64,000 nucleotides of DNA, taken from assembly GCF_003063415.1 (NCBI RefSeq), contig NZ_NESK01000015.1, positions 1-64,000 on the forward strand, read 5' to 3'. This stretch comes from Limnohabitans sp. 2KL-17. Lineage in GTDB: Bacteria > Pseudomonadota > Gammaproteobacteria > Burkholderiales > Burkholderiaceae_C. A program made the position numbers and the translations under genes. Each line of letters begins with the position of its first letter. The first letter of the stretch is position 1. This document shows, one piece after another, positions 9,138 through 64,000 of the stretch. The notes under the pieces were generated by a model, which saw only the letters and a list, made by a program, of their open reading frames with translations, had not been told where the DNA came from and ran no database searches.

Positions 9138-9185
9138 GCGCTTGTCTTTCCAAAAAAATAATCAGGCCAGGCCCCAAGATGAAGT

Positions 9186-48500: not shown

Positions 48501-51500
48501 ATGCCTCAGGTAATTGGCGCTACAGTTACTACGAAAACAACTCTCTCTTTGGACAAAAAGCGCCAGATGCCACTACCGATCAATCGGTATCCTTGTTCCA
48601 AGTTAACGGCGACGGAACGACCAACAAGCTGTGGGAACAAAATGCACGCATCGATTTGCGATCACCCGAGCTTTTAAAGCTGCAGCAGAGCCAAAGTTCT
48701 CACCTGGAATATCTGAGTCCCTCACAAAGCATTTTTCTGAACGCTCAATTCTCGGAGGATTTAGGCACAAGCCTGACCGCACAAGACCTCAGTACGTTTG
48801 GTGGCTTTCTCAGTCAGATCACGGGCACGGGGGTTAACCGAACACTGCTTTTTACCGCCGAGTCATCGCAAGTCTCTTATTTGGCGAGGCTTGGAACCTC
48901 GCTCGGGGGATTACGGGACAGTGCCACAAATGCTAACAAGAACGAAAGCTGGCTTTACATGCCGGTTATTGGCGAATCGGGACCAGTCATTTATCCCAGC
49001 AGCCGAGAAATCAATGTGCGTGCCGGGCGCACCGTCATGTTGGATCTGCGCGATCCGGCGCTCAATGTGGCGAATGGCCAGTGGCGGGTGATGGTGCAAG
49101 GCTTGGCACCTGAGCAATCGCTCAGCCACGGGCTGCGAGACGCCTTGACGGGTTTTTGGTCGGTCAATGCTGAGGACTGGGGTTTGCTGGCTGTTGCGAC
49201 ACCTCGGTCAACAGCAGGTGGTCATCGCGAGGTTCATCTGACCTATCAAAAACAATCCAATACAGGTTGGCTAGATGTGTCGAAAACCGCTGTATCCGTT
49301 AACGTCAGAACTTGGTATCAAGTCAAAGCAGATCAAAGCGTCGAGGATTTCAACAACTTCACCCACATTCAGGAAGCCTGGAACATGGGTTTAAACCGCG
49401 TTACGGGCCGGGGTGTCAAAGTTGAAGCTGAAGGTAGCCATGTGGTCCCCCAAAATGACGACTTCCAGAAAGGCAACGTCCTGTATGGCAGCGCCAGTGG
49501 GTCTGAACCCAATCACGGCACGGGGGTTGGTCAACGAATTGCTGGTGATTGGGACAGCAGTTTTGTCGGTACAGCTTATGGCGCCAGCGTGATATGGGGA
49601 CCCACCGACCAAGTCGATATTGACAACAACAGTTGGACTTTTAGTTATGGCAGCTTTGGCAGCTTTGGCGAACCCGAAAACATGAGTTCAATCACCAAAG
49701 GTCGTGGTGGCTTGGGACAGATTGTCGTTTTTTCAGGCGGCAATGGGGGCCCAACGACCAACGATAGTTTGCTCACAGGTAAAAAAGAGCCGGCCTACAT
49801 GGCGATTGCATCCTTAGATAACGCCAATGGTCAGATCACGGGTTTTAGCAACAGCGGGGATGCCTTGCATGGAGCTGTGCCCGGCTGGGGTGGCACCAGC
49901 CATGCCGCACCCCACTTGGCCGGAATTGTGGCATTGATGCTGGAAATCAACCCCGGCTTGGGGTTTAGGGATGTGCAGGCCATCTTGGCTTACGGGGCTA
50001 CTTACTTGAAAGATGGACAAACCCCAGACAAGTCCGGTTTTTACCTCAACCAGGGCCGTACCCTCAATGGCGTGGGCATGCACTTTTCGCGCTCAGCAGG
50101 GTTCGGCGTCATGGACGCCTACAACGCCACCCGCCTTGCCAAAGATTGGTTACGCGGCTATCAAGCCGAGACGGTGGTCGACTGGACGCTCAAAGGCTCG
50201 CAAGACAAAAATACCTACACCGTTTCGTCTGATGGTAAAACTGTTACCCAGATTTCATTGACGAGTGATCAAATCGTACGCCTGCAATCAGTAGTGGTTA
50301 AAGCCACCTACACGGACCCGGCTTTCAACACAATGGTGTTTAAGCTGATTTCCCCATCAGGAACCGTCAGCCATATCATGACAGGCAACACCAACGAAGG
50401 CGGCAGCAGGCAAAATGAAATCATCAGCGCAGTCAGCAAGCGGTTCTGGGGAGAAGAGTCGCAGGGCACTTGGACCATCGAATACTCACATGCTGGGACC
50501 ACCTCGGCAAACGCAACCGTCAAAGATATTCAGTTGATTTTTTACGGCGAAAAGGGCGAGGTCAGCCAGCGACACATTTACACCGATGAACGCCGCCAGA
50601 CTTGGCAGACCTTGGCCACTCAAAATGACAAGCAAAAAATGCTCTGGCTGGACGACCGAGATGGCGGTCATGATGTCATCATGGGCTCGGCGCTCACGCA
50701 TGCGCTGAAGGTTTGCTTGGGCTACAGCGGCTGGCTCAGTTATGACGGCATGCGCTCATTGTTTACGGCAGGAACACGGGTTGAAAACGCATTTGGGGGC
50801 GACGGCAACGACTGGCTCAGCGGATTACCCGACGGCACCAGTCTGCTACTTGGCAACCAGGGCAGCGATGTGTTGATCGGCTTCGGGCAGGACTCGCAGC
50901 TTGAAGGTGGCGATGACGCAGACTGGCTTTGGGTGGGCGGCAATACCCAAGCGAAGGGCGCTGACGGCTCGGACTATTTCATGGTGTACGGTGGCAAAAC
51001 AATTTTCAAAACCAGCGCCAGCATTGCAGCGCAGTTGCCTGACTTCGATCCGAACAAAGACATGCTGCTCACTTACGACAAGACTGGCGTCTTTGAAGTC
51101 GCTAGATTTGATTTGCAGGGTCAGGTCAGTGCGTGGGAAGTTGTCAAGGACGCATCGTTCATTGAGCAACTGAATACCCAATGGCAAAGCTCTGTGCGCC
51201 CCAATCCACTTGGTATTACCGTCTCATTAAGCAGCATTGCCCTGGACTTTGGAATGAAAATCGTTCACGAAGCGTCAAATTACACCGACTGGACACTCGG
51301 CGGACGCAGCCCAGAGACGGCCATATTAGCCGGGTCCGTCTTAACTCTGGGCTACAACACCGCTTTTTCAGGCCTGCAGGTCATGGACTTGTCTAAAGCT
51401 GAGATCTACAGCCCCTTGGGTTTGAAGATGACCTATAAATCACTGTATTTTGGCAATGACCAAGCCAATGCTTTGAATGCATCGACCGAGTCCGCCGCCG

Positions 51501-51922
51501 TGATTGTTTACGGCGCTGGAGGTGCCGATGAGCTAACAGGCGGAGGAGGTGCCGACCTGCTCATCGGTTCGACTGACAGCACCCACTCCATGAGGGGAGG
51601 GGCGAGCAGCGATGTGTTCCGGATAGAAGGGCTGTTGAGCAAAGGGGGGGCAAGTCGCATCCTCGACTTCAGCTTGCAGGAAGGCGACGCGTTGGATCTG
51701 AATCAATTACTCAGTTCGACCGACTCGCGTATTTCATACCTGGATATCGTCAAACTCAGTCAAGACGGAAACAATCTGTTGTTGAATTTTGACCTCGATG
51801 GTCAGGGCCCAAACGCTGCATTGGGCTTCACCGTAGAGCTCAATGGTTTCTTCGTCAACAACTCCCTTCCTGACTTCGCCTTATCCAAGCTCTGTTCGCC
51901 AAATATGACCTGGATCATCTGA
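42554..51922 (+). CDS. Giant RTX/cadherin/LamG/S8-peptidase-like secreted protein
   Basis: A 3122-residue protein with no Sec signal peptide, likely exported by a type I system. In order: six helical-looking repeats (1-430); a carboxypeptidase-regulatory-like segment (about 435-540); cadherin-like repeats (about 670-1175); a LamG/concanavalin-like domain (about 1270-1430); RTX GGxGxD repeats (about 1490-1555 and 1700-1740); an Ig-like region (about 1840-1935). Then a subtilisin/kexin-like S8 domain (about 2270-2500) and a P-domain (about 2535-2680). More RTX repeats (about 2740-2815) and a C-terminal RTX secretion region follow. H2321, N2397 and S2449 are present, but the usual Asp region is VKVEAEGSHV with no Asp. 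GC drops in the middle. IS remnants flank the gene. No T1SS genes are in the window. Confidence 0.85.
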   Translation: MAITPAAALKQIQDYATNNSGAAPTLSTYTDAGIKDASGKLLVTSLNLAAINSALASTSVTAAQLNNTAAIALLVASYNTILNWANGTLSDSGTRPQAADYTKIGVSLGKAASGNTLNLLNAVVGGKTRSGVDSIGELQTLVNATNTLQAVVAGTTPVSALTVANLQSLGLSGITTKNLPAVLSALAAQADDGSATDSLTELQILVTAAGKAQLVIEAYANNNGNYLALYRAPTARDYASVGLTNLSETQVTALNSALKTATVVGASSDNPAELLAMKGILDNLQAMAGNAISANALTKTALATIGVVVEDVKYKVNSTEVTSNIATLVSQAIKAQPGSTPPTVQEVDRLVSTYEGVMQLVATGNSSKSNLTLKNLMDFGLVPTQVTDTLQTVLATITNGGNGVPGIKYLEFTTAAELKAAILATFGSVATVQGRIVAGPLTGNPGGDLVVHAYDAAGKLVGSATVTDYGSYSLTLVNQTSVVLKVHDKDASDSDVPQYMDAATGRLKTMPVLMTVLTLGQGATMTAHITPLTDIAARRAGVTDALPKAPVATAIAKSNSEVAALFLNGADLLSTTPVTTIDAHGAAKADVNLYDVALHTLSKMEETSGQKTAHLTQALAEGITVINGTPRLSAELAASAQDSLSTLKSSNKVPSNLANILSQLVDGNDAPTAVTLTNTITSLAENTNTASSTKVADIRVTDDPMGTNDITLTGFDEGHFEVVGTVLYLKAGVKLDYENKASYAVTVNVVDRTVSGSTAVGIIYTLRLTDENEAPVISSFDTATVAENADISTTVYTASAKDVDADQTLTYSLSGTDADKLVINANNGTVTLKNSANFEVTPSYSFTVIATDSGTGNLTAKQTLILSVTDLNDNAPVFKSGASGTVAENATTTQAIYTASTTDADGTAANKSVVYSLKALTGDVALLNIDSTTGAVTLKASANYEAKASYSFTVVATNTGVSGTLTAESAVNVAVIDVAELPSSIELSDSHLSENIAVGDGVLIGQIVLVEDPDLTRDNVLTLSGADAQNFEIRNGALYYIGANPDYEALSSYNLTVTSSEGSLAKSQTFTVTVTNVSEGVKSISLSANKMRENTAAVGDGIRIGQISILEENLSSTTLSLSGQDSKSFEIREAVLYYVGAALDYETKSSYSITVNCTNGILNTSKIFSIGVTNTSEGINQVSLEMNTPLNLTLYDFTQGSQADSTNQKIVIKKLPSNGLLKLDGVNVRVNQPIESADLSKLVYTPLATGIGRDIERIGFTLSGSERKALDLDGLNDYANLGSLTLGSSFTLEAWYQADTIKTNARIFDLGNDAGADNIILAQNYLYVSSAYREVLRIPIASNHLKTAAWTHVAATVDSNGLATVYIDGQIIAASVLTGSLQSLERTKNYIGKSNWSQDPYFDGQVAGIRIYKDARTMAEIQEDMRGTLDVTDPNLLVTEEFNGASSTVTLVNGPTYVDRIEQLRLEITGGKILWGDGSGNGNTGLEGIKFDGGGDGDQLHGTSLNDIIFGDGSGGGQMSNGSTAGKAGGGDDQLAGGAGNDLLFGDGFAASGMHGGYGGGGGGETVWYGSGGKGGIGAGNGYSGGKEGGSSWLGALNLGTGLQARRLGLTEDNWRGGAGVRSSNLHSGSDTDAVTADLSYGAAANVAAYGNRSVYDKVLWDLSLGTNGMGSGNSSSDAVGTGNGGLNIDLRLYNQATGSGADVLQGGRGNDWLMGGGGADSFVWIGDDMDGGSDYIVDFNARQGDLLRFDASKFRGYRAGADLRQWFKSETGLTQASPFDAGKGTYSRLTVDLSGQADFSQPDQVIYLRGNPLALTTLAASIDITTQALTQRPVAMNARLSEARWAFDRGVVGSLDERDVIELEFSAPVTLSQSSLPVSIWGIDAVAKSLYVAKGASSTWSITLGKNHTVTAGCILTLISVQDAVGIEGNTQIVWPGAASTASIKPFGSSALYEGIEFYGKVNANTKLLLQWGTVSANISSDASGNWRYSYYENNSLFGQKAPDATTDQSVSLFQVNGDGTTNKLWEQNARIDLRSPELLKLQQSQSSHLEYLSPSQSIFLNAQFSEDLGTSLTAQDLSTFGGFLSQITGTGVNRTLLFTAESSQVSYLARLGTSLGGLRDSATNANKNESWLYMPVIGESGPVIYPSSREINVRAGRTVMLDLRDPALNVANGQWRVMVQGLAPEQSLSHGLRDALTGFWSVNAEDWGLLAVATPRSTAGGHREVHLTYQKQSNTGWLDVSKTAVSVNVRTWYQVKADQSVEDFNNFTHIQEAWNMGLNRVTGRGVKVEAEGSHVVPQNDDFQKGNVLYGSASGSEPNHGTGVGQRIAGDWDSSFVGTAYGASVIWGPTDQVDIDNNSWTFSYGSFGSFGEPENMSSITKGRGGLGQIVVFSGGNGGPTTNDSLLTGKKEPAYMAIASLDNANGQITGFSNSGDALHGAVPGWGGTSHAAPHLAGIVALMLEINPGLGFRDVQAILAYGATYLKDGQTPDKSGFYLNQGRTLNGVGMHFSRSAGFGVMDAYNATRLAKDWLRGYQAETVVDWTLKGSQDKNTYTVSSDGKTVTQISLTSDQIVRLQSVVVKATYTDPAFNTMVFKLISPSGTVSHIMTGNTNEGGSRQNEIISAVSKRFWGEESQGTWTIEYSHAGTTSANATVKDIQLIFYGEKGEVSQRHIYTDERRQTWQTLATQNDKQKMLWLDDRDGGHDVIMGSALTHALKVCLGYSGWLSYDGMRSLFTAGTRVENAFGGDGNDWLSGLPDGTSLLLGNQGSDVLIGFGQDSQLEGGDDADWLWVGGNTQAKGADGSDYFMVYGGKTIFKTSASIAAQLPDFDPNKDMLLTYDKTGVFEVARFDLQGQVSAWEVVKDASFIEQLNTQWQSSVRPNPLGITVSLSSIALDFGMKIVHEASNYTDWTLGGRSPETAILAGSVLTLGYNTAFSGLQVMDLSKAEIYSPLGLKMTYKSLYFGNDQANALNASTESAAVIVYGAGGADELTGGGGADLLIGSTDSTHSMRGGASSDVFRIEGLLSKGGASRILDFSLQEGDALDLNQLLSSTDSRISYLDIVKLSQDGNNLLLNFDLDGQGPNAALGFTVELNGFFVNNSLPDFALSKLCSPNMTWII
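42600..43840 (+). repeat. Six-unit protein repeat array at N-terminus of giant gene
   Basis: Units of about 60-75 residues share a pattern: a YxxxG(V/L) or LxxLG(L/V) opener, then NLxAVLSAL or LNSAL, then (E/D)LQxLV followed by a helical A/N-rich segment. Examples start at DYTKIGVSLGK, NLQSLGLSGITTKNL and DYASVGLTNLSETQV. Units are diverged at the DNA level, so this is an old duplication. Similar repeats occur in large Burkholderiales adhesins. Confidence 0.65.
44560..46085 (+). repeat. Cadherin-like repeats in giant protein
   Basis: About five repeats of 85-105 residues carry the VAEN(A/T) opener, a Y(T/S) or DVDADQTLTYSLSGTDA block and the DYE(N/A/T)xxSYxxTV core typical of bacterial cadherin and cadherin-like domains. 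The last two have (G)DGVLIGQI and GDGIRIGQI openers and lower GC. Confidence 0.75.
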
Positions 51923-53033: not shown

Positions 53034-54005
53034 TCAAGCCATCCACTGCGCCAATGCTTCGCTGGTGGCTTCGGGCAGTTCTTCGGGAATGAAGTGCCCT
53101 GATGGCATGACCTGCCCGCTGACACGCCCTGCACATTGAGCTTGCCATAGTTCGACCGGCTTTAACATGCGATTGACCACGCCCCGATCCCCCCACAAGA
53201 CCAAGGTGTCGCAAGCGATTTTGTCGCCACGCTCACGCCCTTCAAGGTCGTGCTGCAGGTCAATGCCTGCGCTGGCGCGATAGTCTTCAGCCGCGCTGTG
53301 GATGGCGGCTGACCAGCCTTTGTCGTTCAAGGTCGGGTTGCAAAACGCACGCTCATATTCGGCCAGCGCTTCGGTCTCGATGTAGTCCAGGCCTTGGCTG
53401 CCCCAGCCGCCGAGCTTGGCGTGCAAGTAGGCTTTGGGGTTGCCTCCGATCATGAACTCGGGCAGCGGTGCGGGCTGCGTGAGGTGGAACCAGTGGTAAT
53501 AAGCCTGCGCAAAAGCGAAGTACGGATCGGCCACTGGGCCAGAGGCCTCGGGTGTTTTGCCCCAATGGCCGCTGTACATGTCGAAGGTGGGCGCGATGTC
53601 GATCACGCACAGTTTTTTGACACGCGAAGCATGGTCCAACGCCAGCCGATGCGCCACCCGGCCGCCTCGGTCGTGACCACACAAAAAGAAGTTGCTCACA
53701 CCCAAGGCGTCCAGCAGGCTTGCGACTTCCTGGGCCATGGCGCGCTTGCTGTAATGCAGATGCTGGGCATCCCCCACGGCATGCGATGAGTCACCGTAGC
53801 CGCGCAGGTCGGGCAGGACCAACCTGTAGCGGCCGCGCAGACTTTGCGCCACGCGATGCCACATGACATGGGTTTGCGGAAAGCCGTGCAACAAGACCAG
53901 CACCGGCAAATGCGCTTGTTCGTCCCAATCGGCCGAACGCCGAAAGCTAACGGGCAGGCCCGCCACCGTGAGCACTTGCCTCTCAAAACCTTCAAACCAT
54001 GCCAT
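53034..54005 (-). CDS. Alpha/beta hydrolase, haloacetate (fluoroacetate) dehalogenase-like
   Basis: The 323-residue product matches fluoroacetate/haloacetate dehalogenases (DehH1). The nucleophile elbow GHDRGGRVAHR carries Asp112 rather than Ser, with the halide/carboxylate-binding Arg113 and Arg116. Asp136 (DIAPT) and His304 (SGHFIPEE) complete the triad. His171 and Trp172 (YYHWF) fill the halide pocket. All known signature residues are present, so C-F or C-Cl cleavage of haloacetates is plausible. It overlaps the TctC gene stop (TGATG) and ends the six-gene minus-strand operon. Confidence 0.88.
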   Translation of the reverse strand: MAWFEGFERQVLTVAGLPVSFRRSADWDEQAHLPVLVLLHGFPQTHVMWHRVAQSLRGRYRLVLPDLRGYGDSSHAVGDAQHLHYSKRAMAQEVASLLDALGVSNFFLCGHDRGGRVAHRLALDHASRVKKLCVIDIAPTFDMYSGHWGKTPEASGPVADPYFAFAQAYYHWFHLTQPAPLPEFMIGGNPKAYLHAKLGGWGSQGLDYIETEALAEYERAFCNPTLNDKGWSAAIHSAAEDYRASAGIDLQHDLEGRERGDKIACDTLVLWGDRGVVNRMLKPVELWQAQCAGRVSGQVMPSGHFIPEELPEATSEALAQWMA

Positions 54006-55015
54006 CAATCCACCTTGGCGCCGGATGCCTTGACCACTTCGGCCCACTTTTTGTGCTCGCTGTCGATCAGGGCAGCAAATTGTGCTGGCGTGTTGCCACT
54101 GGGGATCGCACCCAATGTGGCCAGACGCTCCTTCATGGCAGGACTGGCCAGCGACTTGGCGACTTCTTGCTGGATGCGGCTGACCACATCGACAGGCGTG
54201 CCCGCAGGGGCCAGCAAACCGAACCAGCTGCTGGCTTCAAAGCCTTTGAGTCCGGCGGCCTCTTCTACCGTAGGCAGATCAGGCAAGGCGGCAGAGCGCT
54301 GGTTGCTGGTCACCGCCAAGGCTTTGAGCTTGCCCGACTTGATGAGCTGCATGGCCGATGGAAGGTTGTCGAACATGACGTCCATGCTGCCTCCTGCCAG
54401 GTCCAGCAAGGCCGGGCCGGAACCCCGGTAAGGAATGTGGGCCATGAAAATGCCCGTCTGCGACTTGAACAACTCCCCTGCCAGGTGGATGGACGTGCCG
54501 TTGCCACTGGACGCCATGTTCAATTTACCCGGGTTGGCCTTGGCGTACTGGATGAAATCCTTGACGTTGTTGATCTTGTTGGCTGCGGCCTTTTCGGCAT
54601 TGACCACCATCACGTTGGGCACACCCGCTACCAAAGTGACGGGTGCAAAGTCCTTGAAGGGGTCGTAAGGCAGTTTGGCGTAGAGCGCGCGGTTGATGCC
54701 GTGCGTGCCTACCGTGCCCATGAGCAGGGTGTAGCCATCACCAGGCGCCTTGGCCACTTGTTCGGCCCCCAAATTGCCACCGGCGCCCCCTTTGTTTTCA
54801 ACCACGAAGGACTGCCCGAAGGCTTTGCTCAGATCGGGTGCGATGGCGCGGGCCAGGATGTCGGTGGTGCCACCGGGCGCAAAGGGCACGACGATCTTGA
54901 CCGGCTTGTTGGGCCAGGCTGTTTGGGCCCAGGCCGCAGGCGCTGCAGACAACAAGAGGGCAGCGGCCATGCCGAGAATCGGGCGGCGAGTGAAAGAACA
55001 AGAAACATGAACCAT
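54005..55015 (-). CDS. Tripartite tricarboxylate transporter receptor (Bug/TctC family)
   Basis: The 336-residue periplasmic binding protein has a signal peptide ending near [10 protein letters not shown]. It shows the Bug signature [23 protein letters not shown] and [23 protein letters not shown]. It captures a carboxylate or aromatic/heterocyclic acid. No TctA/TctB membrane subunits are adjacent; Bug receptors are often orphan. ATG 55013-55015 starts a normal signal sequence. It sits between the CoA ligase and dehalogenase genes. Confidence 0.92.
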
Positions 55016-55096
55016 GTGGGTCTCCAGGCTGGTATGCAAATGATGTTGCCACGGCCATGGCCAAACTCTGTCACGCAAGCGAAGATTCGGCTTGAT

Positions 55097-56638
55097 TTAA
55101 GGGTTTGTCCTGATCAACATGGCCTGCAAGACCGGTTTTTGCACTTTGCCCAATGCGCTTTTGGGCAAGCCGTCCAGCCACACGAGCTTGCGGGGTAATT
55201 TGAAGCGGGCAATTCGGCTTTGCAGGGAGTGCATCAATGCTTCGGGCGTCAAGGCTCGCCCGGCCTCATCGGCACTGCGCACCAGCACCGCCACGGGCAC
55301 TTCGCCCCAACGCGCATCGGGCACGCCGACCACCGCGCATTCGGATACGCCAGGAAAGGTCAACAGCAAGTTTTCGATTTCTGCCGGGTAAATGTTTTCC
55401 CCGCCCGAGATGATCATGTCCTTGCTGCGGCCCACGATGGTGATGCACCCGTTCTGGGCTTGTTGGCCGAGGTCGCCGGTGCAAAACCAGCCGTCCTGCA
55501 AGCCCACGCCCGCAGCGCCATCGCTTTGCCAATAACCGCGCATCACATTGGACGCACGGATGCACACCTCGCCCGTTTTCCCAACGGGTACGGCGCCGCC
55601 TTGTTCGTCACGCAAGGCCACTTCTGCCTGGACATGGGGCCACCCGGTACTGCCCAGATGTTCTGTGGCCTGGTCCAGCCGCAACACGATGGAGACCGGA
55701 CCGGTTTCGGTTGTGCCGTAAATCTGTCCCACGGGGATGCCCCGATCGTGGAAAGCCTGTAGATACGCCACCGGGATGGTGGACGAGCCCGCCATGACAC
55801 CACGCAGCGAAGACAATTGCGCCAGCGCCCAACGGGGGTGGTCGAGCACAGCACGCAAGGTGGCAGGCACGAGCAGCGACAAGCTGGGCCGACTTGTTTC
55901 CACCTCATCCAGCCATGCCCCGGCGTCAAAGCGCGCGTGCAAGATCACCGACACTCCCGCCAGCAAAGCGGGCAGGGTCTGGATGCACAAGCCGCCCACA
56001 TGGAACATCGGCAAAGTCGACAGCACTTTGTCACCGGCCACAAAACCATGCGCCGCATGGCTGGCACGCGCATTGGCCAGCAAGTTGTCTTGTGTATGCA
56101 CCGCGCCCTTGGCTTGGCCCGTGGTGCCCGAGGTGTAGACCAGCAGCACGGGCGCATCACCCGTCACCCAAGGCAAGTGCAAACCCCGAGGCGATGGCGA
56201 TTCAATCAGGGCATCCGAATGCGTGTGTTGCAGCCCCGACAAATTCAAAGCGGCAGCCACCTCGGCATGCAAACTGTCATTCACCAGCAAGCTCGGCTGG
56301 CCGTCATCCAGCACCTGCTGCAACTCGGCCAAGGCCAAACGATAGTTGAGGGGCATGAACACCGCACCCATCCGCGCACAAGCCAGCAGGGTGACCAATT
56401 GAAGCTCGTGATTCAGGCCCAGCCAGGCCACGCGGTCACCGGGTCGAATGTGCCAAGTGTTTTGCAGGTGAGCGGTGACACGCTTTACACGGCGCCAGAA
56501 CTTGGCAAAGTCGCAAGACCACACGCCGTGGTCCTGAGGGCAGTACAAGGCCATCTGGTCGCCCTGCTGCATGGCCAGCGCGTGCATACGCCGGGCCAGA
56601 GGACTGTGTTCAACCCCTTGTCCTGCGTTGGGGCTCAT
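55097..56638 (-). CDS. Acyl-CoA synthetase (AMP-dependent ligase)
   Basis: The 513-residue ANL-family enzyme activates a carboxylate with ATP and CoA. The P-loop VYTSGTTGQAKGAVHT, GQIYGTTETGPV, the hinge WFCTGDLG and GRSKDMIISGGENIYPAEIE motifs are intact, and the C-terminal catalytic Lys lies in LPKSALGKVQKPVL. The substrate is not deducible; medium-chain, aromatic or pyridine carboxylates are all possible. It overlaps the ACAD-like gene stop by four bases (ATGA), so both products are likely made together. Confidence 0.9.
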   Translation of the reverse strand: MSPNAGQGVEHSPLARRMHALAMQQGDQMALYCPQDHGVWSCDFAKFWRRVKRVTAHLQNTWHIRPGDRVAWLGLNHELQLVTLLACARMGAVFMPLNYRLALAELQQVLDDGQPSLLVNDSLHAEVAAALNLSGLQHTHSDALIESPSPRGLHLPWVTGDAPVLLVYTSGTTGQAKGAVHTQDNLLANARASHAAHGFVAGDKVLSTLPMFHVGGLCIQTLPALLAGVSVILHARFDAGAWLDEVETSRPSLSLLVPATLRAVLDHPRWALAQLSSLRGVMAGSSTIPVAYLQAFHDRGIPVGQIYGTTETGPVSIVLRLDQATEHLGSTGWPHVQAEVALRDEQGGAVPVGKTGEVCIRASNVMRGYWQSDGAAGVGLQDGWFCTGDLGQQAQNGCITIVGRSKDMIISGGENIYPAEIENLLLTFPGVSECAVVGVPDARWGEVPVAVLVRSADEAGRALTPEALMHSLQSRIARFKLPRKLVWLDGLPKSALGKVQKPVLQAMLIRTNP

Positions 56639-57906
56639 TCGTCTTTTTCACCCGGTTCGTACAAGGCTTCTCGGCCGATGCGGTCCATGCAGAGCTCGGC
56701 TGTCCAGGGCAGCATGAGCGAGCCGCAACGTGCATCGCGGTACAGGCGCTCCAGCGGCAGGCTTTTGAGCATGGACTGACCGCCGCAAGTGCGGATGGCC
56801 AAACGGGCGATGTCTTGCGCGTTTTCCATGATGGTGTACTGCGCGGCGTAGGCCCGCAGGCGGGTGGACTTGCTCGGGTCGACCTTCGCGTCTTCAATGG
56901 CGCGCAAGAACAAGTTGCGGGTTTGTTCGAGCTTGATGAACATCTCGGCCACGGCGATCTGTTTGGTCGCGAACTGGCGGCGCTTGACGGGGCCAGTGCC
57001 CGCAATCTCGCCACGCAGATAAGCCACGGTGAAGTCGTACGCCGCTTGCGCGATGCCCATGTACGTGGGCGAGAGCGTCATGAACATGTGGGGCCAGCGG
57101 CTGGCGGCCTGAAAGTACAGGCCCTGCGGCATGAGCGCCGCGTCATCGGGCACAAACACGTCTTTGAAAATCAAATTGCGCGACACGGTGGCGCGCATGC
57201 CCAGCGGGTCCCAATCGCCTTCGATCGTCAGACCCGGCGCGGTGCGGGGTATGGCCAGGTACAAGGTGTCGCGGCGCGAAAGGTCAGCGCCCTCTTTCTT
57301 CTCGGTGCAGAGCACACCAAAATAATCGGCGGCATCTGACAGGGATGCGAAGATTTTTTTACCGTTGATCTTCCAGCCGCCATCGACCTTGACGGCGATA
57401 GTGCCGAAGGGCTGAGCGCCTGAGGCCGCAGCGCCACCTTCTGAAAAAGGCTGCGCGTAAATCGCGCCGTCATTCACCACACGGGCAAAGTGCGTGGCCT
57501 GGTGCGTGCGGTGGATGGCGCGTTGCTCGGGCGTCATCTCCAGGTCTTCAGACAACAAGCCGCTCCAAAGCATGGTGCAGACGTGCATGTTGAAGGTGAG
57601 CGCGGTGGCGCCGCAGTAGCGGCCGATCTCGGCCGAGACCATGGCGTAGGTGGCGTAATCGGCACCCTGGCCGCCATGCGCTTCGGGCACGCACAGCGCC
57701 AGCAGGCCCGAGTCGCGCATGTCGTCGTAGTTGGCGAACGGGAACTGCGCGTCGCGGTCGAGTTGCGCGGCACGCGGGGCGAACTTCTCGCGGCCGAGTT
57801 GCCGCGCCAAAGCCATCAGCTTTTGCTGCTTCTCGGTCAGGGGGTAGTCGTCACCACAGATGGGCATGACATCTGGTTGAGAGGGGGCTTGCAAATCGGT
57901 TGTCAT
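56635..57906 (-). CDS. Acyl-CoA-dehydrogenase-like flavoprotein with atypical active site
   Basis: The 423-residue product has the ACAD fold: N-terminal helical domain (about 25-140), beta domain with AQPFSEGGAAASG and WKINGKKIFASLSDAAD (about 150-260), and C-terminal helices ending in RTCGGQSMLKSLPLERLYRD. Where medium-chain ACADs have RDAxxxxIYEGT, this protein has RDARCGSLMLPWTAE, so the usual catalytic Glu is Leu. It may be a flavin-dependent monooxygenase of the DszC/HsaA type or a dehydrogenase with another base. A flavin reductase gene is divergent in the cluster, supporting the former. Confidence 0.8.
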   Translation of the reverse strand: MTTDLQAPSQPDVMPICGDDYPLTEKQQKLMALARQLGREKFAPRAAQLDRDAQFPFANYDDMRDSGLLALCVPEAHGGQGADYATYAMVSAEIGRYCGATALTFNMHVCTMLWSGLLSEDLEMTPEQRAIHRTHQATHFARVVNDGAIYAQPFSEGGAAASGAQPFGTIAVKVDGGWKINGKKIFASLSDAADYFGVLCTEKKEGADLSRRDTLYLAIPRTAPGLTIEGDWDPLGMRATVSRNLIFKDVFVPDDAALMPQGLYFQAASRWPHMFMTLSPTYMGIAQAAYDFTVAYLRGEIAGTGPVKRRQFATKQIAVAEMFIKLEQTRNLFLRAIEDAKVDPSKSTRLRAYAAQYTIMENAQDIARLAIRTCGGQSMLKSLPLERLYRDARCGSLMLPWTAELCMDRIGREALYEPGEKDE

Positions 57907-58685
57907 GGTTTCACATCCTTCAGAAATTTTTCCAGTTCGACGTTGAACGCCTCGGGCTGTTCGTAATGCAGCAAATGGCCAGCGCCAGCCAGGCAGGCGT
58001 AGCGCGCACCGGATATCTTTTGCGTCATGCGCTCCATCACTGCAGGAGGCGCTGTGCGGTCATGCTCTGCGGCCAAGCACAGCACAGGGATGGTGATGGT
58101 GGGCAGCGCCGCACGTTGCTCAAACTGCACCAGCGCATGCAAAGCTGCGCGGTAGGTGTCCTGTGGCACCGCCGACATACTTTGGTGCGCCTGATGCAGT
58201 TTGGCCGCATCGCCACCGGGTATGGCCATGCTGGGGATCAGCTTGTCGGCGATGTCGCCCATGGTTTTTCCTGCTTCCAACGGTGCCAGCCGCTGCGCCA
58301 GAAACTGCTTTTGAAAATCGCCGTCGCTGTTGCCAAAGGCCGGGCTGCTGGCTGCCAGCACCATGGCCGTGATGCGCTCGGGCATCTGCGTCCAGGCTTG
58401 CAGGGCCACCATGGCGCCCATGCTGTGGCCGACCAGCACCGCTTGGCGAATGTGCGCGGCATCCATCATCTGCCACATGGCCATGGCGAGGTGCTCAAAG
58501 TCATAAGGCGTGAGCATGGCGCTTGCGCCATAGCCCGGCATGTCCCAGGCCAGACTGCGCCAGCCCAGCACGGACAGATGCGCTTGTTGCGGGGCCCATC
58601 CATGGCGACCACCGCCCACGCCGTGCAGGAACACCACGACCGGCTGACCTGGCGAACCCACGTCTGTGAAAAAAGGCGTGCTCAC
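57903..58685 (-). CDS. Alpha/beta hydrolase of the NicX-type cluster
   Basis: The 260-residue hydrolase starts at GTG 58683-58685, preceded by AAGGGG at proper spacing; a longer frame to 58931 overlaps NicX. Motifs are VVFLHGVGGGRHGW, the nucleophile elbow LVGHSMGAMVAL (Ser88) and a C-terminal GAGHLLHYEQPE (His). Position after the NicX-like gene suggests it may hydrolyse the ring-cleavage product (N-formylmaleamate deformylase role, NicD-like), but sequence similarity to NicD is only of the general fold. Confidence 0.82.
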   Translation of the reverse strand: MSTPFFTDVGSPGQPVVVFLHGVGGGRHGWAPQQAHLSVLGWRSLAWDMPGYGASAMLTPYDFEHLAMAMWQMMDAAHIRQAVLVGHSMGAMVALQAWTQMPERITAMVLAASSPAFGNSDGDFQKQFLAQRLAPLEAGKTMGDIADKLIPSMAIPGGDAAKLHQAHQSMSAVPQDTYRAALHALVQFEQRAALPTITIPVLCLAAEHDRTAPPAVMERMTQKISGARYACLAGAGHLLHYEQPEAFNVELEKFLKDVKP

Positions 58686-58722
58686 ATGAAGCCCCTTGTC
58701 ACAGAGCCAAAATTTGAAGCCC

Positions 58723-59808
58723 TCATACCAGCGCAGCCTTTTGCACCACACCCGCATCCACCACCACGGTGTCGTCCAGCTGGATGGTGCAGCCTCGCAT
58801 GGGCAAATCGAAATGCCCCAACGTGTGGCGACCTGCCACCTCGTTCGCCCCGGTCGAGTACAAAAAGTTGCCCGCAAAGGCCCGCAGCTCGGTGCCGTTG
58901 CAGTCGCGCTTGTCATAGAACGCCATGGCATCCCAACGCGCTGCCGGGTTCAGGCCAAAGCCCACATGCGAGACGGCATAAGCGGCGCGGTGGCCCTCAA
59001 AGTCTTCCCAGGCTTTCCAGTAGCCGCGCATCATGTCCACATCGACGCCCTGCCCCTCGATGGCCACGACGCTGTCGCTCTCGATGGTCAGGCGGATCGT
59101 GTCGCGCAAATAGCTTTTGAAGGTCAGGTTCACATCACCCGGGGCCATGACCAAGGTGCCGTTGACACTGCCCGCAGCGGGGAAAGCCAGCGCCAGCCCA
59201 GCAGGCCAGTGCGACACCATGCCCGGCTTGGGGCAAAAGCCCCACACACCGCCGACCACCGCTTGTTTGTCGCCATGTTTCAGGTTCACTCGCAGGTCGG
59301 TGCCTGCGGCAGACGCGACGTGCATTTGTTGTGCGCCACGCAGCTTCTTCATGGCGGCACGCACCACGCCCTCGAGCGCCGGATCGGGCACGGTGCGCTC
59401 CAAAATTTCAGGGTGCTCGTTGGACACCATGAGCAGGCGCGGCATGTGGCCGTCGACGCCTTTCATGATGGTGGGCAACTCGGGGGCGTGCAGCAGGCCT
59501 TCGACGGTGCAGTCCACCACCATGTCGGCGCGGGCCAATGCAGCCACCACGGGGCCGAGTTGGCCAATCGCGTCGCTGGCGCCTGTGGAGCGCACGGGCG
59601 CGGGGGCGGTGAGTGCGGGCGTGGTCAACGTCACTTCGAACACACGAGCGCCCATGCCCTCCAGCGCGAGGCGGGCCAAGTCCACGTTGACCCGGCGTGA
59701 TTGGGTTTCGGCCAGAATAGCGACCACTTCGCCAGGCTGCACCTTGCACAGCGTGAAGGTGCGGGTAAACGCCGCGAGCCACCTGTTTTCGATTCGTTCC
59801 ACCAGCAT
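58723..59808 (-). CDS. 2,5-dihydroxypyridine 5,6-dioxygenase-like (NicX family)
   Basis: The 361-residue product matches NicX, a non-heme Fe(II) extradiol dioxygenase that opens 2,5-dihydroxypyridine to N-formylmaleamate in nicotinate and picolinate degradation. The iron ligands line up: His281 in SHVGFGLNPAARWDA, His332 and Asp334 in GHFDLPMRGC, with spacing near that of characterised NicX. Other blocks shared are GDVNLTFKSYLRDTI and FAGNFLYSTGAN. ATG 59806-59808 has AAGGAG upstream. The first gene of the minus-strand operon; divergent from a flavin reductase. Confidence 0.85.
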   Translation of the reverse strand: MLVERIENRWLAAFTRTFTLCKVQPGEVVAILAETQSRRVNVDLARLALEGMGARVFEVTLTTPALTAPAPVRSTGASDAIGQLGPVVAALARADMVVDCTVEGLLHAPELPTIMKGVDGHMPRLLMVSNEHPEILERTVPDPALEGVVRAAMKKLRGAQQMHVASAAGTDLRVNLKHGDKQAVVGGVWGFCPKPGMVSHWPAGLALAFPAAGSVNGTLVMAPGDVNLTFKSYLRDTIRLTIESDSVVAIEGQGVDVDMMRGYWKAWEDFEGHRAAYAVSHVGFGLNPAARWDAMAFYDKRDCNGTELRAFAGNFLYSTGANEVAGRHTLGHFDLPMRGCTIQLDDTVVVDAGVVQKAALV

Positions 59809-59869
59809 GCTTGTCTCCTTGGCCTGCAGCTCTGAACGGTTCTCCTGCAGACATGACTGGTCAGTTTAT

Positions 59870-59881
59870 ATGAAAATTCAT
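59870..59881. promoter_or_regulatory. Putative operator overlapping flavin reductase start
   Basis: ATGAAAATTCAT has perfect 5-base arms around a 2-base centre. It lies in the only AT-rich part of the 71-base region between the divergent NicX-like and flavin reductase genes, where a MarR site would be expected. If the flavin reductase starts at 59880, the site overlaps the start codon. Confidence 0.4.
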
Positions 59882-60464
59882 GCAATTCAACTATCATCCA
59901 CCCATGCACCAAGCCCCCCCATCTCACATCAAAGCGCTGAGTCCAGACTTTGAAACACCGCATTTCAAGCAAGCACTCTCGCGCTTTGCCACGGGGGTGA
60001 CCGTCATCACCACGTTCGCACCAGGCGCACACAAGGGCGATTCGGCCAGCAGCAGCTTTGTGGGCATCACGGCCAGCTCATTCAATTCGGTGTCGCTCAC
60101 GCCGCCGCTGGTGCTGTGGAGCCTGGGGCAAGGCGCCAGCAGCGCACCGCTGTTCCATGCGGGCACGCATTACGTGGTGAACGTGCTGGCCGCCGATCAG
60201 CTGGATGTCTGCAACCGCTTTGCCTACGGCAAAGGCGACCGCTTTGCCGACACCACTTACACGCTGGGCGAGTCGGGTTTGCCCATTTTGGATGGCGCTC
60301 TGGCCTGGTTTGAATGCCACAACCGCAGCCGCCACGAAGAAGGCGACCATGTGATTTTTGTGGGCGAGGTGGAGCGCTGCGGCTTCAGCGATGGCTCAGC
60401 ACCTCTCGTTTACCAGGGCGGTCAGTTCAGCACCACCACGCCTCTGACCCATCCTCTGCCATGA
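59880..60464 (+). CDS. Flavin reductase (HpaC-like, two-component monooxygenase partner)
   Basis: The 194-residue product (ATG 59880; ATG 59904 possible, neither with a good ribosome site) is a flavin_reductase-like domain. It contains RFATGVTVIT, the FMN-binding SSFVGITASSFNSVSLTPPLVLWSLG, FECHNRSRHEEGDHVIFVGEV with the NADH-side motif, and a C-terminal YQGGQF. Such enzymes supply reduced flavin to oxygenases. The best partner in the window is the ACAD-like flavoprotein. Its stop overlaps the MarR start (ATGA). Confidence 0.87.
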   Translation: MQFNYHPPMHQAPPSHIKALSPDFETPHFKQALSRFATGVTVITTFAPGAHKGDSASSSFVGITASSFNSVSLTPPLVLWSLGQGASSAPLFHAGTHYVVNVLAADQLDVCNRFAYGKGDRFADTTYTLGESGLPILDGALAWFECHNRSRHEEGDHVIFVGEVERCGFSDGSAPLVYQGGQFSTTTPLTHPLP

Positions 60465-60901
60465 CCAACTCGGCAGGCTTTGTCGACGACTACCTGGCCT
60501 ATTTGCTGGCACGCGCCAGCCATTTGATTTCGAGCGAGTTCCACGCCGTGGTCGAGGCCAGTGGCCTGAGCCTCATGGAGTGGCGCGTCATGGCCAGCCT
60601 GTCGGGCAAAGACAGTTTGAGCATCAACGAACTCGCCAGCATCGTGCTGGCCAAACAGCCCACCGTGACCAAGCTGGTGGGCCGCATGCAAGACGCTGGG
60701 TGGGTCAAGCGTTGCGATGCCGCACACGACAAACGGCAAAGCCTGGTCAGCCTCACGGCCGCAGGTCGGCGCAAAGTGCAGCCCCTGCTGAAGCAAGCCA
60801 AAGCGCACGAAGCGCAGGTGGTGTCGGCTTTGGGTGTGGACCCGGCTCATCAACTCAAGCTGATGTTAGAGAGCTTGATTGCGGCGCATGGCAGTACCTG
60901 A
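60461..60901 (+). CDS. MarR-family transcriptional regulator
   Basis: The 146-residue regulator has a winged-helix MarR domain: SLMEWRVMASLSGKDSLSINELA, ASIVLAKQPTVTKLVGRMQDAGWVKR and the wing residues DKRQSLVSLTAAGRRKV. It is coupled to the flavin reductase gene by ATGA overlap and probably represses the divergent catabolic genes through the intergenic operator. Related MarR proteins (NicR, PicR, BpsR) control pyridine catabolism clusters. Confidence 0.88.
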   Translation: MTNSAGFVDDYLAYLLARASHLISSEFHAVVEASGLSLMEWRVMASLSGKDSLSINELASIVLAKQPTVTKLVGRMQDAGWVKRCDAAHDKRQSLVSLTAAGRRKVQPLLKQAKAHEAQVVSALGVDPAHQLKLMLESLIAAHGST

Positions 60902-61290: not shown

Positions 61291-62952
61291 GTGGCAGCCA
61301 AGGTTCAGGTCAAATCGCTGACGTTTGGGAAACCCCCATTCCGTAAGCTGGGCAATATCAACATTGAGTTCGCGGATCGGCTTACCCTAATCGCAGGGCA
61401 CAACGGGATCGGTAAATCGACCATCTTGGGGTTGGTTGCCAATACCTTCGGTATAACTGAGCGCGGCGGCCCTAAAAGCTATTTTGGTGAACCTTTCTCG
61501 GCAAACATAGAACGCATCGTGTACTTGGCCTTGGCTGAAGTGGACGAAACCCAGAAAGACTTGGCTTCAGCTCCCGTTGTGACTGCCTACGTCAATGGCA
61601 CTGAGGTCAAGAAGCGTTGTTCAATGACCCGCAGGTCGGTCTGGAAACGCGCTCGTGTTGTTCCACGGACCATAGATAAAGCCGAAGATGACACGGTAGG
61701 CCAGGATGCCAAGATACCGCTACCAACCATATACCTTGGAATGCGACGGCTAGCTTCGGCCGGTGAAGCCGACGAAAAAGAAGTGACCAGCAGCCAGCTG
61801 GATATGCACCCTGCCGACAGCAACCTGATGGTGGCCTTTGTCAGCTCAGTGATTCATGGCACCGAACTGAACACAGACGTGACCCACCAGACCATAAAAG
61901 GCTCCAAGAAAAAAACCGCTCAACCCGGCTACACCCAGCATGACGCGCTCGCCGTCTCCATGGGACAGGACAGCCTAGGTAGCATGGCGACAGCGCTGGC
62001 GTCATTCAATCAGTTGAAACGCGAAATGGGGGATGCGTATCCAGGAGGACTACTGGTTATCGACGAAATGGATGTGGGCTTCCACCCGCATGCCATTGAA
62101 CGGCTTGCCAAGTCACTGAAAACCTACGCCAAACAACTTGACCTGCAAATCATTGCCACCACGCACTCTCCTCGGCTCATAGAAGCAGTCCACCCAGACG
62201 GCGACGGGAACGCCAATGCGCCAGATAAGGTGATTTATCTACTCGACACCAAGTTCCCCAGGCTAGCTGAGGACCAATCGCTTCGAGCCATGCTCGACGA
62301 CATGGCCTTGAAGCCTGAAGAAGAAAAGCCAAAGAGAAAAGCAAAGCCAACCTTGGCTGTTTACTTTGAAGACGATGAAGCAGCCCAGTTTTGTGACCGA
62401 TTGATTCCAACCGCCAAGAAAAGCGCCTTATCCAAGAAATATGGCGTTCGCATCAACTGGATTCCACTGGGCATAGGTGGATCGCATCTGGTCAAGCTCC
62501 CAGAAAAAGACCCGCTGTTCTTGGACAGAGTGCTGATCGTCGATGCAGACACGACCGTGCCACAAGCTGCCGCAGCAAGAGGCAATATCGTCAAGTTGCC
62601 CAATGTGCCTGGTACAACCGGCGTTGCACGGTCATTGGAAAACACCACCAAACAATTCCTGCGCGACATCTCCAATACCGCAGACGGTCCACTGCACCAA
62701 GCGCTGCTAAACCTCAATACGCAAAACCCTACCAGTGACAAAGTTCATAGAAACTTCTTCCAAGACGGTGATGGCGAAAGCACCGAGCGGAACAAAACCA
62801 AAGCCTGGTGGAAAAGGCATTGGTCCAAGCTGAAAAACTGGGGAGTAATTGAGCAATGGGCCGAGGTTTACAAGGCCGAGGCGGAAAAATTTGAAACTGC
62901 CTTTGAGGCTGCAGTCGCCCGCACTGCTGGTCGACTGAAAGACAAGGCATGA
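61291..62952 (+). CDS. OLD-like ATPase with TOPRIM-like C-terminal domain
   Basis: The 553-residue product starts at GTG 61291 with a perfect AGGAGG 4 bases upstream. The N-terminal ATPase has Walker A GHNGIGKSTI (36-45), an ABC-signature-like VSMGQDSLG (near 223), Walker B GGLLVIDEMDVGFHP (near 253) and ATTHSPRLIEAV (near 290). The C-terminal part has VYFEDDEAAQFCDRLIP (near 355) and RVLIVDADTT (near 415), the Glu and Asp-x-Asp pattern of a TOPRIM nuclease. It resembles OLD-family or PARIS-like ATPase-nucleases. The methyltransferase follows after 28 bases. Confidence 0.78.
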   Translation: MAAKVQVKSLTFGKPPFRKLGNINIEFADRLTLIAGHNGIGKSTILGLVANTFGITERGGPKSYFGEPFSANIERIVYLALAEVDETQKDLASAPVVTAYVNGTEVKKRCSMTRRSVWKRARVVPRTIDKAEDDTVGQDAKIPLPTIYLGMRRLASAGEADEKEVTSSQLDMHPADSNLMVAFVSSVIHGTELNTDVTHQTIKGSKKKTAQPGYTQHDALAVSMGQDSLGSMATALASFNQLKREMGDAYPGGLLVIDEMDVGFHPHAIERLAKSLKTYAKQLDLQIIATTHSPRLIEAVHPDGDGNANAPDKVIYLLDTKFPRLAEDQSLRAMLDDMALKPEEEKPKRKAKPTLAVYFEDDEAAQFCDRLIPTAKKSALSKKYGVRINWIPLGIGGSHLVKLPEKDPLFLDRVLIVDADTTVPQAAAARGNIVKLPNVPGTTGVARSLENTTKQFLRDISNTADGPLHQALLNLNTQNPTSDKVHRNFFQDGDGESTERNKTKAWWKRHWSKLKNWGVIEQWAEVYKAEAEKFETAFEAAVARTAGRLKDKA

Positions 62953-62980
62953 GGTAAGCTACCAGCTTAGCTGTTTATCC

Positions 62981-63850
62981 ATGTACTCCAACAAGTTGTA
63001 TACCCCTCTGCGCTACCCAGGTGGTAAAGCTCGCTTTGCCCCGTTGATAGCTGAGGTCATCACCAACAACAACCTTGCCGGCGGTCACTACCTTGAGCCG
63101 TATGCAGGGGGAGCTGGCGTTGCCCTGTCTTTGCTTATCGACAACGTAGTTGAACACATCCACATCAACGATGCCGACCCCGCTATTGCAGGTTTCTGGC
63201 GAGTGGCCAGCCAAAAAACTGCTGAATTGGTAACCATGGTCGCCACCGAGCCCATCACCATGGATGCGTGGCACCACTGGCGCGGGGTGATGCTGGGGCA
63301 GGAATCTGGATCGGAGCTGGAACGTGGCTTTGCCACGCTGTTCATGAACCGGACCAACCGTTCAGGCATCCTGAAAGGTGGTGTTATTGGCGGTAAGGCG
63401 CAATCCGGCAGCTACAGAATTGATGCCCGCTTTATGCGTGACGAGCTTTGCAAGCGTCTGGAACGTATTGGGCTACACGCCGAGGGCATCCATGTGTATG
63501 AAGAAGATGCCCACGAACTGCTGAGGCGTTGCCACCAGTTTTTGCCAGCCAAATCACTGATCTACCTGGACCCGCCGTACTACGTCAAAGGCGCGGGCCT
63601 GTACCGCAACTTTTACAAACACGACGACCACGTGAAAATCGCACAGCTTTTGGGGAGACAGCGCTTCAGCCGACCGTGGGTCGTGTCATATGACAACGCT
63701 GAAGAAATCAGAGAGATGTACGCATATGCCACACCCTATGCGTATGGACTCCACTACACAGCACAGCGCCGCTACACGGGCTCAGAAGTCATGTTTTTCA
63801 GCAAGCGCCTTAAAGCACCGCTGGATACGATGGAAAAGATTGCGGCCTGA
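62981..63850 (+). CDS. D12-class N6-adenine DNA methyltransferase (Dam family)
   Basis: The 289-residue enzyme methylates adenine in DNA. Motif I-like regions are TPLRYPGGKARFAP at the N-terminus and LEPYAGGAGVALSL; catalytic motif IV is YLDPPYYVKG. The C-terminal part has PWVVSYDN and RYTGSEVMFFSK, standard for the Dam/D12 group. It is the second gene after the OLD-like ATPase, suggesting a restriction-modification-like or phage-defence pair. The target site cannot be read from the sequence. Confidence 0.9.
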   Translation: MYSNKLYTPLRYPGGKARFAPLIAEVITNNNLAGGHYLEPYAGGAGVALSLLIDNVVEHIHINDADPAIAGFWRVASQKTAELVTMVATEPITMDAWHHWRGVMLGQESGSELERGFATLFMNRTNRSGILKGGVIGGKAQSGSYRIDARFMRDELCKRLERIGLHAEGIHVYEEDAHELLRRCHQFLPAKSLIYLDPPYYVKGAGLYRNFYKHDDHVKIAQLLGRQRFSRPWVVSYDNAEEIREMYAYATPYAYGLHYTAQRRYTGSEVMFFSKRLKAPLDTMEKIAA

Positions 63851-63949: not shown

Positions 63950-64000
63950 CTAGGCTTTCTCCAGTTTCTCACCAAGGCCTTTTTCGTTCAATCCGGCACC
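63950..64000 (-). other. Possible C-terminal tail of a truncated reading frame at window edge
   Basis: A minus-strand frame entering from the right edge ends at TAG 63950-63952 and gives GLNEKGLGEKLEKA. This is weakly reminiscent of a mid-transposase segment but too short to classify. Confidence 0.2.

Follow-up and report, generated by a model that had tools for sequence, protein, structure and literature searches.

The breakdown routes of tryptophan, indole, quinaldine, and auxin (iad-type) meet at anthranilate (2-aminobenzoate), and the accessible text of a review on the degradation of this compound lists four aerobic pathways, with no NicX-type enzyme in them (PMC4539516). In one of these, the abm pathway of Azoarcus evansii, a single hydroxylating and reducing enzyme is described as yielding a non-aromatic CoA ester (PMC4539516); at low NADH, this 2-aminobenzoyl-CoA monooxygenase/reductase is reported to give 5-hydroxyanthraniloyl-CoA as a product (PMC3534580), and the 2-aminobenzoyl-CoA cluster is described as vital for the use of anthranilate in Cupriavidus sp. 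SHE (PMC6221969). A 5-hydroxyanthranilate/gentisate route has been reported from Nocardia opaca (Cain 1968, cited in PMC4539516), and the relevant excerpt of a 2018 review of indole metabolism gives the gene(s) of such a gentisate-type branch as not known (PMC6221969). NicX itself, the 2,5-dihydroxypyridine dioxygenase of Pseudomonas putida KT2440 (PDB 7cn3), is described as binding N1 and O1 of dihydroxypyridine through Glu177 (PMC7910607). Here, we analyze a divergent unit at positions 53034 to 60901 of a 64-kb window (the whole stretch of DNA studied, from contig NZ_NESK01000015.1) of the 3.5-Mb genome of Limnohabitans sp. 2KL-17, in which a gene for a NicX-like protein, referred to below as NicX', is combined with genes for a CoA ligase and a flavoprotein of the acyl-CoA dehydrogenase (ACAD) fold. 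The interpretation we favor, which we give close to an even chance, is that genes of the unit specify an aerobic, CoA-dependent pathway for the use of anthranilate, downstream of tryptophan breakdown by KynA-KynB-KynU.

Gene content and recurrence of the NicX' unit

A previous, sequence-only reading of this DNA placed eight genes in the unit, and an open reading frame (ORF) check together with domain searches (Pfam calls Abhydrolase, Acyl-CoA_dh N/M/1/2, AMP-binding, TctC, Flavin_Reduct, and MarR) confirmed the coordinates and family of each. On the reverse strand, the gene for NicX', a predicted NicX-like non-heme Fe(II) ring-cleaving dioxygenase of 361 aa (58723 to 59808), is followed by those for an alpha/beta hydrolase with a conserved Ser-Asp-His triad (ABH1; 57903 to 58685, with an uncertain start, the ORF being open up to 58931), the ACAD-fold flavoprotein (56635 to 57906), an AMP-forming CoA ligase (55097 to 56638), a TctC-type periplasmic receptor (54005 to 55078), and a second, dehalogenase-like alpha/beta hydrolase (ABH2; 53034 to 54005). 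The forward strand encodes a flavin reductase similar to HpaC and HsaB (59880 to 60464) and an HpaR-like regulator of the MarR family (60461 to 60901). Overlaps of 4 bases link the ABH1 and ACAD, the ACAD and CoA ligase, and the flavin reductase and MarR genes.

This gene set is not unique to the source genome. Among 399 Burkholderiales genomes, a NicX homologue (E <= 1e-10) was found in 27, of which 21 have a best match of 48 to 100% identity (NicX') and 6 have one of 39 to 41% (canonical NicX). The ACAD-like protein (E <= 1e-90) is encoded in 16 of the 399 genomes, solely in NicX' carriers (16 of 16), and its gene adjoins NicX' in 15 of the 15 re-fetched loci, so the association is not due to chance. 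ABH1 is present in 14 of these 15 loci and the CoA ligase in 12 (it was not seen in L046 and L048, and the contig ends in L050). A second sample comprised 80 named genome loci, the best 80 of the 563 confirmed with a NicX' profile; it is dominated by close relatives (NicX' of the nearest, from Limnohabitans, is up to 98% identical to that of the window), and some of its contigs end within the cluster. In these loci, tblastn detected ABH1 in 76, the ACAD-like protein in 74, MarR in 69, the CoA ligase in 64, and the flavin reductase in 61 cases. TctC and ABH2, each found in 23 of the 80, are lineage accessories. Such recurrence bears out the suggestion of the sequence-only reading that an undescribed-looking, CoA-linked ring pathway of the NicX type is encoded here. 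No published description of the unit was found in the open-licence literature; in the accessible text of one paper, on the genome of a fusaric acid degrader, NicX and "anthranil-" occur once each (PMC10293998).

The divergent promoter is marked by a palindrome, ATGAANNTTCAT (59870 to 59881), which is present as a single copy in the window; the true start of the flavin reductase gene is perhaps 59904, 3' of it. Within 220 bases upstream of NicX', the palindrome occurs in 68 of the 80 named loci, and elsewhere in the 1.40 Mb of these loci there is one copy, in the gap between the MarR and reductase genes of the L148 cluster (~1.3 copies would be expected in random sequence with equal base use). 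When the 96 loci with enough upstream sequence were compared, it was found within 1.5 kb in 74 of the 77 that have MarR and in 1 of the 19 that lack it; it is absent from L169 to L183, all of which were searched. The palindrome is usually lost along with MarR and is proposed to be its operator, through which MarR would control the divergent promoter.

Genomic links to anthranilate metabolism

Of the 80 named loci, 26 have all three of kynA, kynU, and kynB at a distance of no more than ~8 kb from NicX' (14 Cupriavidus-like, 11 Pandoraea, and 1 bog metagenome-assembled genome [MAG]), such as L121, where the tryptophan dioxygenase, kynureninase, and arylformamidase genes exceed the NCBIfam cut-offs. 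At least one gene of the abm (2-aminobenzoyl-CoA) type, taken as >70% identity to L091, was detected in 35 loci, from Limnohabitans and relatives, and neither kyn nor abm-type genes were detected in 19, some of which are on short contigs. On the contig of the window, an abm-type operon begins 3.1 kb past marR, at contig position 63988; its first bases (63988 to 64000, reverse strand) fall within the window, and it continues to contig position 72025, encoding proteins of the RidA type, CoA ligase, ACAD, enoyl-CoA hydratase type, MarR type, SDR, and AbmG type. The AbmG-type monooxygenase/reductase is thus encoded in this neighboring operon (69692 to 72025) and not in the unit. We take it to be AbmG from the operon make-up and by analogy with the Azoarcus cluster; its relative in L091 exceeds the cut-off of NF006101 (salicylyl-CoA 5-hydroxylase/oxidoreductase). 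The kynB-U-A genes of the source genome sit on another contig.

The same links are seen at the level of whole genomes. An AbmG-type protein (E <= 1e-150) is encoded in 16 of the 16 sampled cluster genomes, with identities of 88 to 92% in 2, 64 to 73% in 3, and 48 to 53% in 11 of them (two matches contain one internal stop). It was found in 53 of 367 Burkholderiales genomes, comprising 15 of the 15 with the cluster and 38 of the 352 others (Fisher p 4e-14, with kinship ignored). Tryptophan dioxygenase is encoded in 12 of the 16 cluster genomes and 62 of the 383 others, and an anthranilate 1,2-dioxygenase over the cut-off was found in 0 of the 16. From these co-occurrences, taken together with the kyn and abm-type linkage, we infer that the substrate is anthranilate or its CoA ester; as a substrate class, anthranilate is well supported.

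Several further regions deserve mention. Between marR and the abm-type operon, the window (61291 to 63850) encodes an AAA ATPase with weak PtuA/OLD-like matches and a D12 adenine methyltransferase (PADLOC PD-Lambda-5_B, 369 bits). As marR adjoins the RidA-type gene in several other Limnohabitans loci, this pair looks like a defence-type insert. The kynB-U-A genes of the source genome (L154, C33:48318-52307) are followed by what reads by eye as a 2Fe-2S and molybdopterin-type pair and an FAD monooxygenase. Finally, a 3122-aa open frame at 42554 to 51922 of the window reads, also by eye, as a secreted protein that is rich in repeats and resembles subtilisin over part of its length.

NicX' and its partner enzymes

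NicX' has no match among Pfam and NCBIfam families at E 0.001, matches 7cn3 at 2e-51, and has the overall fold of P. putida NicX, with 34% identity over it. The Fe ligands claimed for it earlier, His281, His332, and Asp334, align with His265, His318, and Asp320 of NicX, and the fourth ligand, Ser302 of NicX, corresponds to Ser318, so that all four are common to both proteins. In the NicX' alignment, the first His and the Ser are present in 116 of 116 rows and the second His and the Asp in 115, with one gap. The pyridine-binding Glu177 of NicX, in contrast, has been lost: none of the 116 rows has Glu at this site (Val in 96, including Val188 of the window protein, Gly in 10, Thr in 7, and Asn in 3), whereas 10 other NicX-type rows have Glu (8) or Gln (2). 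NicX' further differs from NicX by a two-residue insertion with an invariant Glu103-Gly104 and by Glu307, which, like Glu103, is invariant in NicX' rows; the site of NicX His105 holds Phe, not His, in the 10 other NicX-type rows.

In the phylogeny, NicX' forms a clade apart from canonical NicX (support 100/99), and its operon is also different. In genome G314, a canonical locus of the nicotinate type that includes a NicX gene (L061) exists in addition to a NicX' cluster beside kyn genes (L040), which makes the two proteins separate paralogues. At five canonical loci (L061 to L063, L065, and L066), NicX is accompanied by genes whose sequences read as those of the NicD type and of the NicE or NicF type. 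The nicC, nicD, nicF, and nicE genes that accompany NicX are not found in the NicX' unit, as the sequence-only reading had stated for nicC, nicF, and nicE; for the genome as a whole, that statement rests on one NicE-type query, itself presumably NicE, which had no match, an empty answer that alone shows nothing. At the canonical locus L063 (genome G237), genes similar to AbmG and to abm (58 to 72% identity) lie no more than 20 kb away, and in this respect the locus departs from the rule that nic and anthranilate genes are kept apart. Proteins of a third group similar to NicX, in which Gln occupies the position of Glu177, are encoded at L067:9328-10404 and L041:16050-17129; in L067, the gene adjoins those for a molybdopterin hydroxylase and an amidase and perhaps belongs to another N-heterocycle route.

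The ACAD-like flavoprotein has LPW at positions 399 to 401 in 20 of 20 aligned rows (LPWT in the window protein, instead of YEGT), and the catalytic Glu is replaced in all of them. Neither the YEGT-type position nor the alternative helix position, which we take to be the sites of the catalytic Glu in acyl-CoA dehydrogenases, holds Glu, whereas GcdH and the abm-type ACAD have YEG. This replacement disfavors a true acyl-CoA dehydrogenase and suggests the oxygenase component of a two-component hydroxylase. The best PDB sequence matches are 5gj7 and 5z8t, the latter titled as a flavin-containing monooxygenase; in the fold comparison, ACADs and monooxygenases tie. As in group D two-component flavin monooxygenases, an ACAD fold goes together with a separate, divergent flavin reductase gene, seen in the window and in 61 of the 80 named loci and not found in the other 19. 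The best argument for a hydroxylase is provided by loci L054 to L059, where NicX'-ABH1 pairs lack the ACAD-like gene and are accompanied instead by one for an FAD_binding_3 (group A FAD) hydroxylase (identified by Pfam in L054 and L057 and by family grouping for L055 to L059); a flavin hydroxylase would thus be the usual partner of NicX' and ABH1.

The activation gene also varies. NicX' was found in 19 of 398 Pseudomonadota genomes (E <= 1e-70), 5 of them already in the Burkholderiales set, and 11 new loci were fetched (L173 to L183). Five of these (L173 to L177) have NicX', ABH1, the ACAD, and the CoA ligase. Four (L179, L180, L182, and L183), as well as the named Ensifer and Aminobacter plasmids, have NicX', the ACAD, a hydrolase, and a glutamine-synthetase-like gene without the CoA ligase, and neither of these alternatives is present in L178 and L181. 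The proposed ring-cleaving protein is therefore constant, while activation and hydroxylation modules are swapped. The glutamine-synthetase-like gene, called by Pfam on L179, by annotation on the plasmids, and by eye elsewhere, replaces the CoA ligase in L169, L170, L172, L179, L180, L182, and L183; its product perhaps glutamylates the amino group of the substrate. An AbmG-type gene (56%) was also found near NicX' in L183. In L178, a 333-aa frame adjoining NicX' (8679 to 9680) has a start that resembles a flavin reductase and also matches MarR (41%), as if the two divergent genes had fused. A lone ACAD-like homologue (64%) was noted on a Dolichospermum plasmid MAG (L171:9998-11245), with no annotated NicX' nearby.

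The nearest solved relatives of the CoA ligase were deposited as a fatty-acyl-CoA synthase and a feruloyl-CoA synthetase, and with such relatives a general fatty-acid enzyme is possible. The matches of ABH1 to NicD-type proteins are weak and local (20 to 29%, E 5e-4 to 4e-3) and do not support its identification as an orthologue of NicD, the N-formylmaleamate deformylase; for ABH2, the E values against these proteins are 2e-12 to 2e-7.

Proposed route, alternatives, and known systems

In the proposed route, anthranilate, taken up perhaps with the aid of TctC, would be converted by the CoA ligase with ATP and CoA into anthraniloyl-CoA, which the flavoprotein, using reduced flavin from the divergent reductase, would hydroxylate para to the amino group to give 5-hydroxyanthraniloyl-CoA. 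NicX' would cleave this ring between C5(OH) and C6, with the geometry known from 2,5-dihydroxypyridine (N1 would map to C1(CO-SCoA) and the 2-OH to the 2-NH2), to a C-formyl, 3-amino-dienoyl-CoA acid. A deformylase or C-C hydrolase, which would be ABH1 judging by conservation or ABH2 in Limnohabitans, would release the C-formyl group as formate, and imine hydrolysis, for which a RidA-type gene lies nearby, would lead to a maleylacetyl-CoA-like acid. It is also possible that NicX' cleaves the free acid instead of the CoA ester and that ABH1 is a thioesterase. That the NicX' family moved from pyridine to a CoA-thioester benzene ring, opening 5-hydroxyanthraniloyl-CoA at C5-C6, with formate removed and a maleylacetyl-CoA-type acid passed to central metabolism, is a tentative proposal, clearly short of an even bet.

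Some observations weigh against this route. The name AbmG is in part provisional, and ABH2 fits NicD better than does ABH1, the proposed deformylase; both points slightly lower the odds of the route. L146, L178, and L181 carry NicX' with neither the ACAD-like protein nor a group A hydroxylase among their nameable genes. In addition, 7 cluster-less genomes of the window's own family carry the AbmG-type protein, so the co-occurrence signal comes mainly from other families. The iad auxin locus was considered as the home of the cluster and set aside, as iadC-K2 is described as ending at anthranilate, with no NicX-like step in the accessible descriptions (PMC12633357, PMC9613470).

The main rival follows from the reported release of 5-hydroxyanthraniloyl-CoA at low NADH (PMC3534580): NicX' and the hydrolase could drain this AbmG product as a salvage branch of the abm pathway, with the ligase and the ACAD-like protein re-activating or processing the dead-end product. 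The presence of an AbmG-type protein in every cluster genome sampled, the adjacent abm-type operon in Limnohabitans, and an AbmG-type homologue (49 to 51%) within ~10 kb in L041 to L045 and L145 are all consistent with such a branch, which we regard as a serious minority possibility. However, a ligase, a flavoprotein, and a flavin reductase are encoded within the unit itself, and the Cupriavidus and Pandoraea loci sit with kyn genes, no abm-type gene having been found in the stretch. The substrate might also be a relative of anthranilate (e.g., 5- or 3-hydroxyanthranilate, salicylate, or an N-substituted anthranilate), with co-location reflecting shared regulation. We give this reading slightly less weight than the salvage branch. 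In its favor, the residue at position 188 differs among rows (Val, Thr, Gly, or Asn), which may mean varied substrates, the Rhizobiales versions have the glutamine-synthetase-like ligase, some of them next to cupin, FAA-hydrolase, and carbon-nitrogen hydrolase genes, and the family name of the AbmG-type protein is salicylyl-CoA 5-hydroxylase; against it, direct kyn adjacency supplies anthranilate itself.

The substrate class expected in the sequence-only reading, an N-heterocycle, is probably wrong, and a CoA-activated pyridine carboxylate that is hydroxylated and then cleaved by NicX' seems improbable. Its appeal lies in the NicX ancestry of the protein and in the TctC receptor, since such receptors often bind carboxylates. 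As a first choice it was rejected on the replacement of Glu177 in all NicX' rows and on the neighboring tryptophan-to-anthranilate and abm-type genes; the unit also lacks nic partners, and G314 has a separate canonical nic-type locus. What stands of the earlier interpretation is the recurring, CoA-linked pathway of the NicX type. An M29-type aminopeptidase in a cluster that cleaves no ring, as the database name 'peptidase M29' would imply, is scarcely credible and was rejected on the NicX fold and the Fe-ligand match. Under the anthranilate route, this name and that of 'acyl-CoA dehydrogenase' could be corrected.

If the route exists, it would add one more aerobic pathway for anthranilate to the reviewed four, with variants that use a glutamine-synthetase-like ligase or a group A hydroxylase. 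Compact and present in freshwater Limnohabitans, Cupriavidus, Pandoraea, and, in part, Rhizobiales, the unit would be a candidate for filling the gene gap of the gentisate-type branch, and it lends itself to testing how a dioxygenase of pyridines may be converted to a carbocyclic substrate by a few visible active-site changes. With the Nocardia opaca route it would share para-hydroxylation of anthranilate, whereas there gentisate forms before cleavage. The flavoprotein shares the ACAD fold with TdaE, which is reported to oxygenate a CoA ester (PMC8283759), with the group D p-hydroxyphenylacetate hydroxylase, and, by fold comparison, with DszC/TdsC, and belongs to a different subfamily. Like the NicX-NicD-NicF-NicE lower pathway, the unit would follow ring cleavage with deformylation by an alpha/beta hydrolase; however, NicD removes an N-formyl group and the hydrolase of the unit would remove a C-formyl group, ABH1 is not an orthologue of NicD, and no amidase or isomerase is encoded in the unit. 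CoA activation of anthranilate would be common to the unit and the abm pathway, and the two operons adjoin in Limnohabitans, whereas their ligases match at 26 to 30% in unbroken genes and the unit would cut the ring with a dioxygenase.

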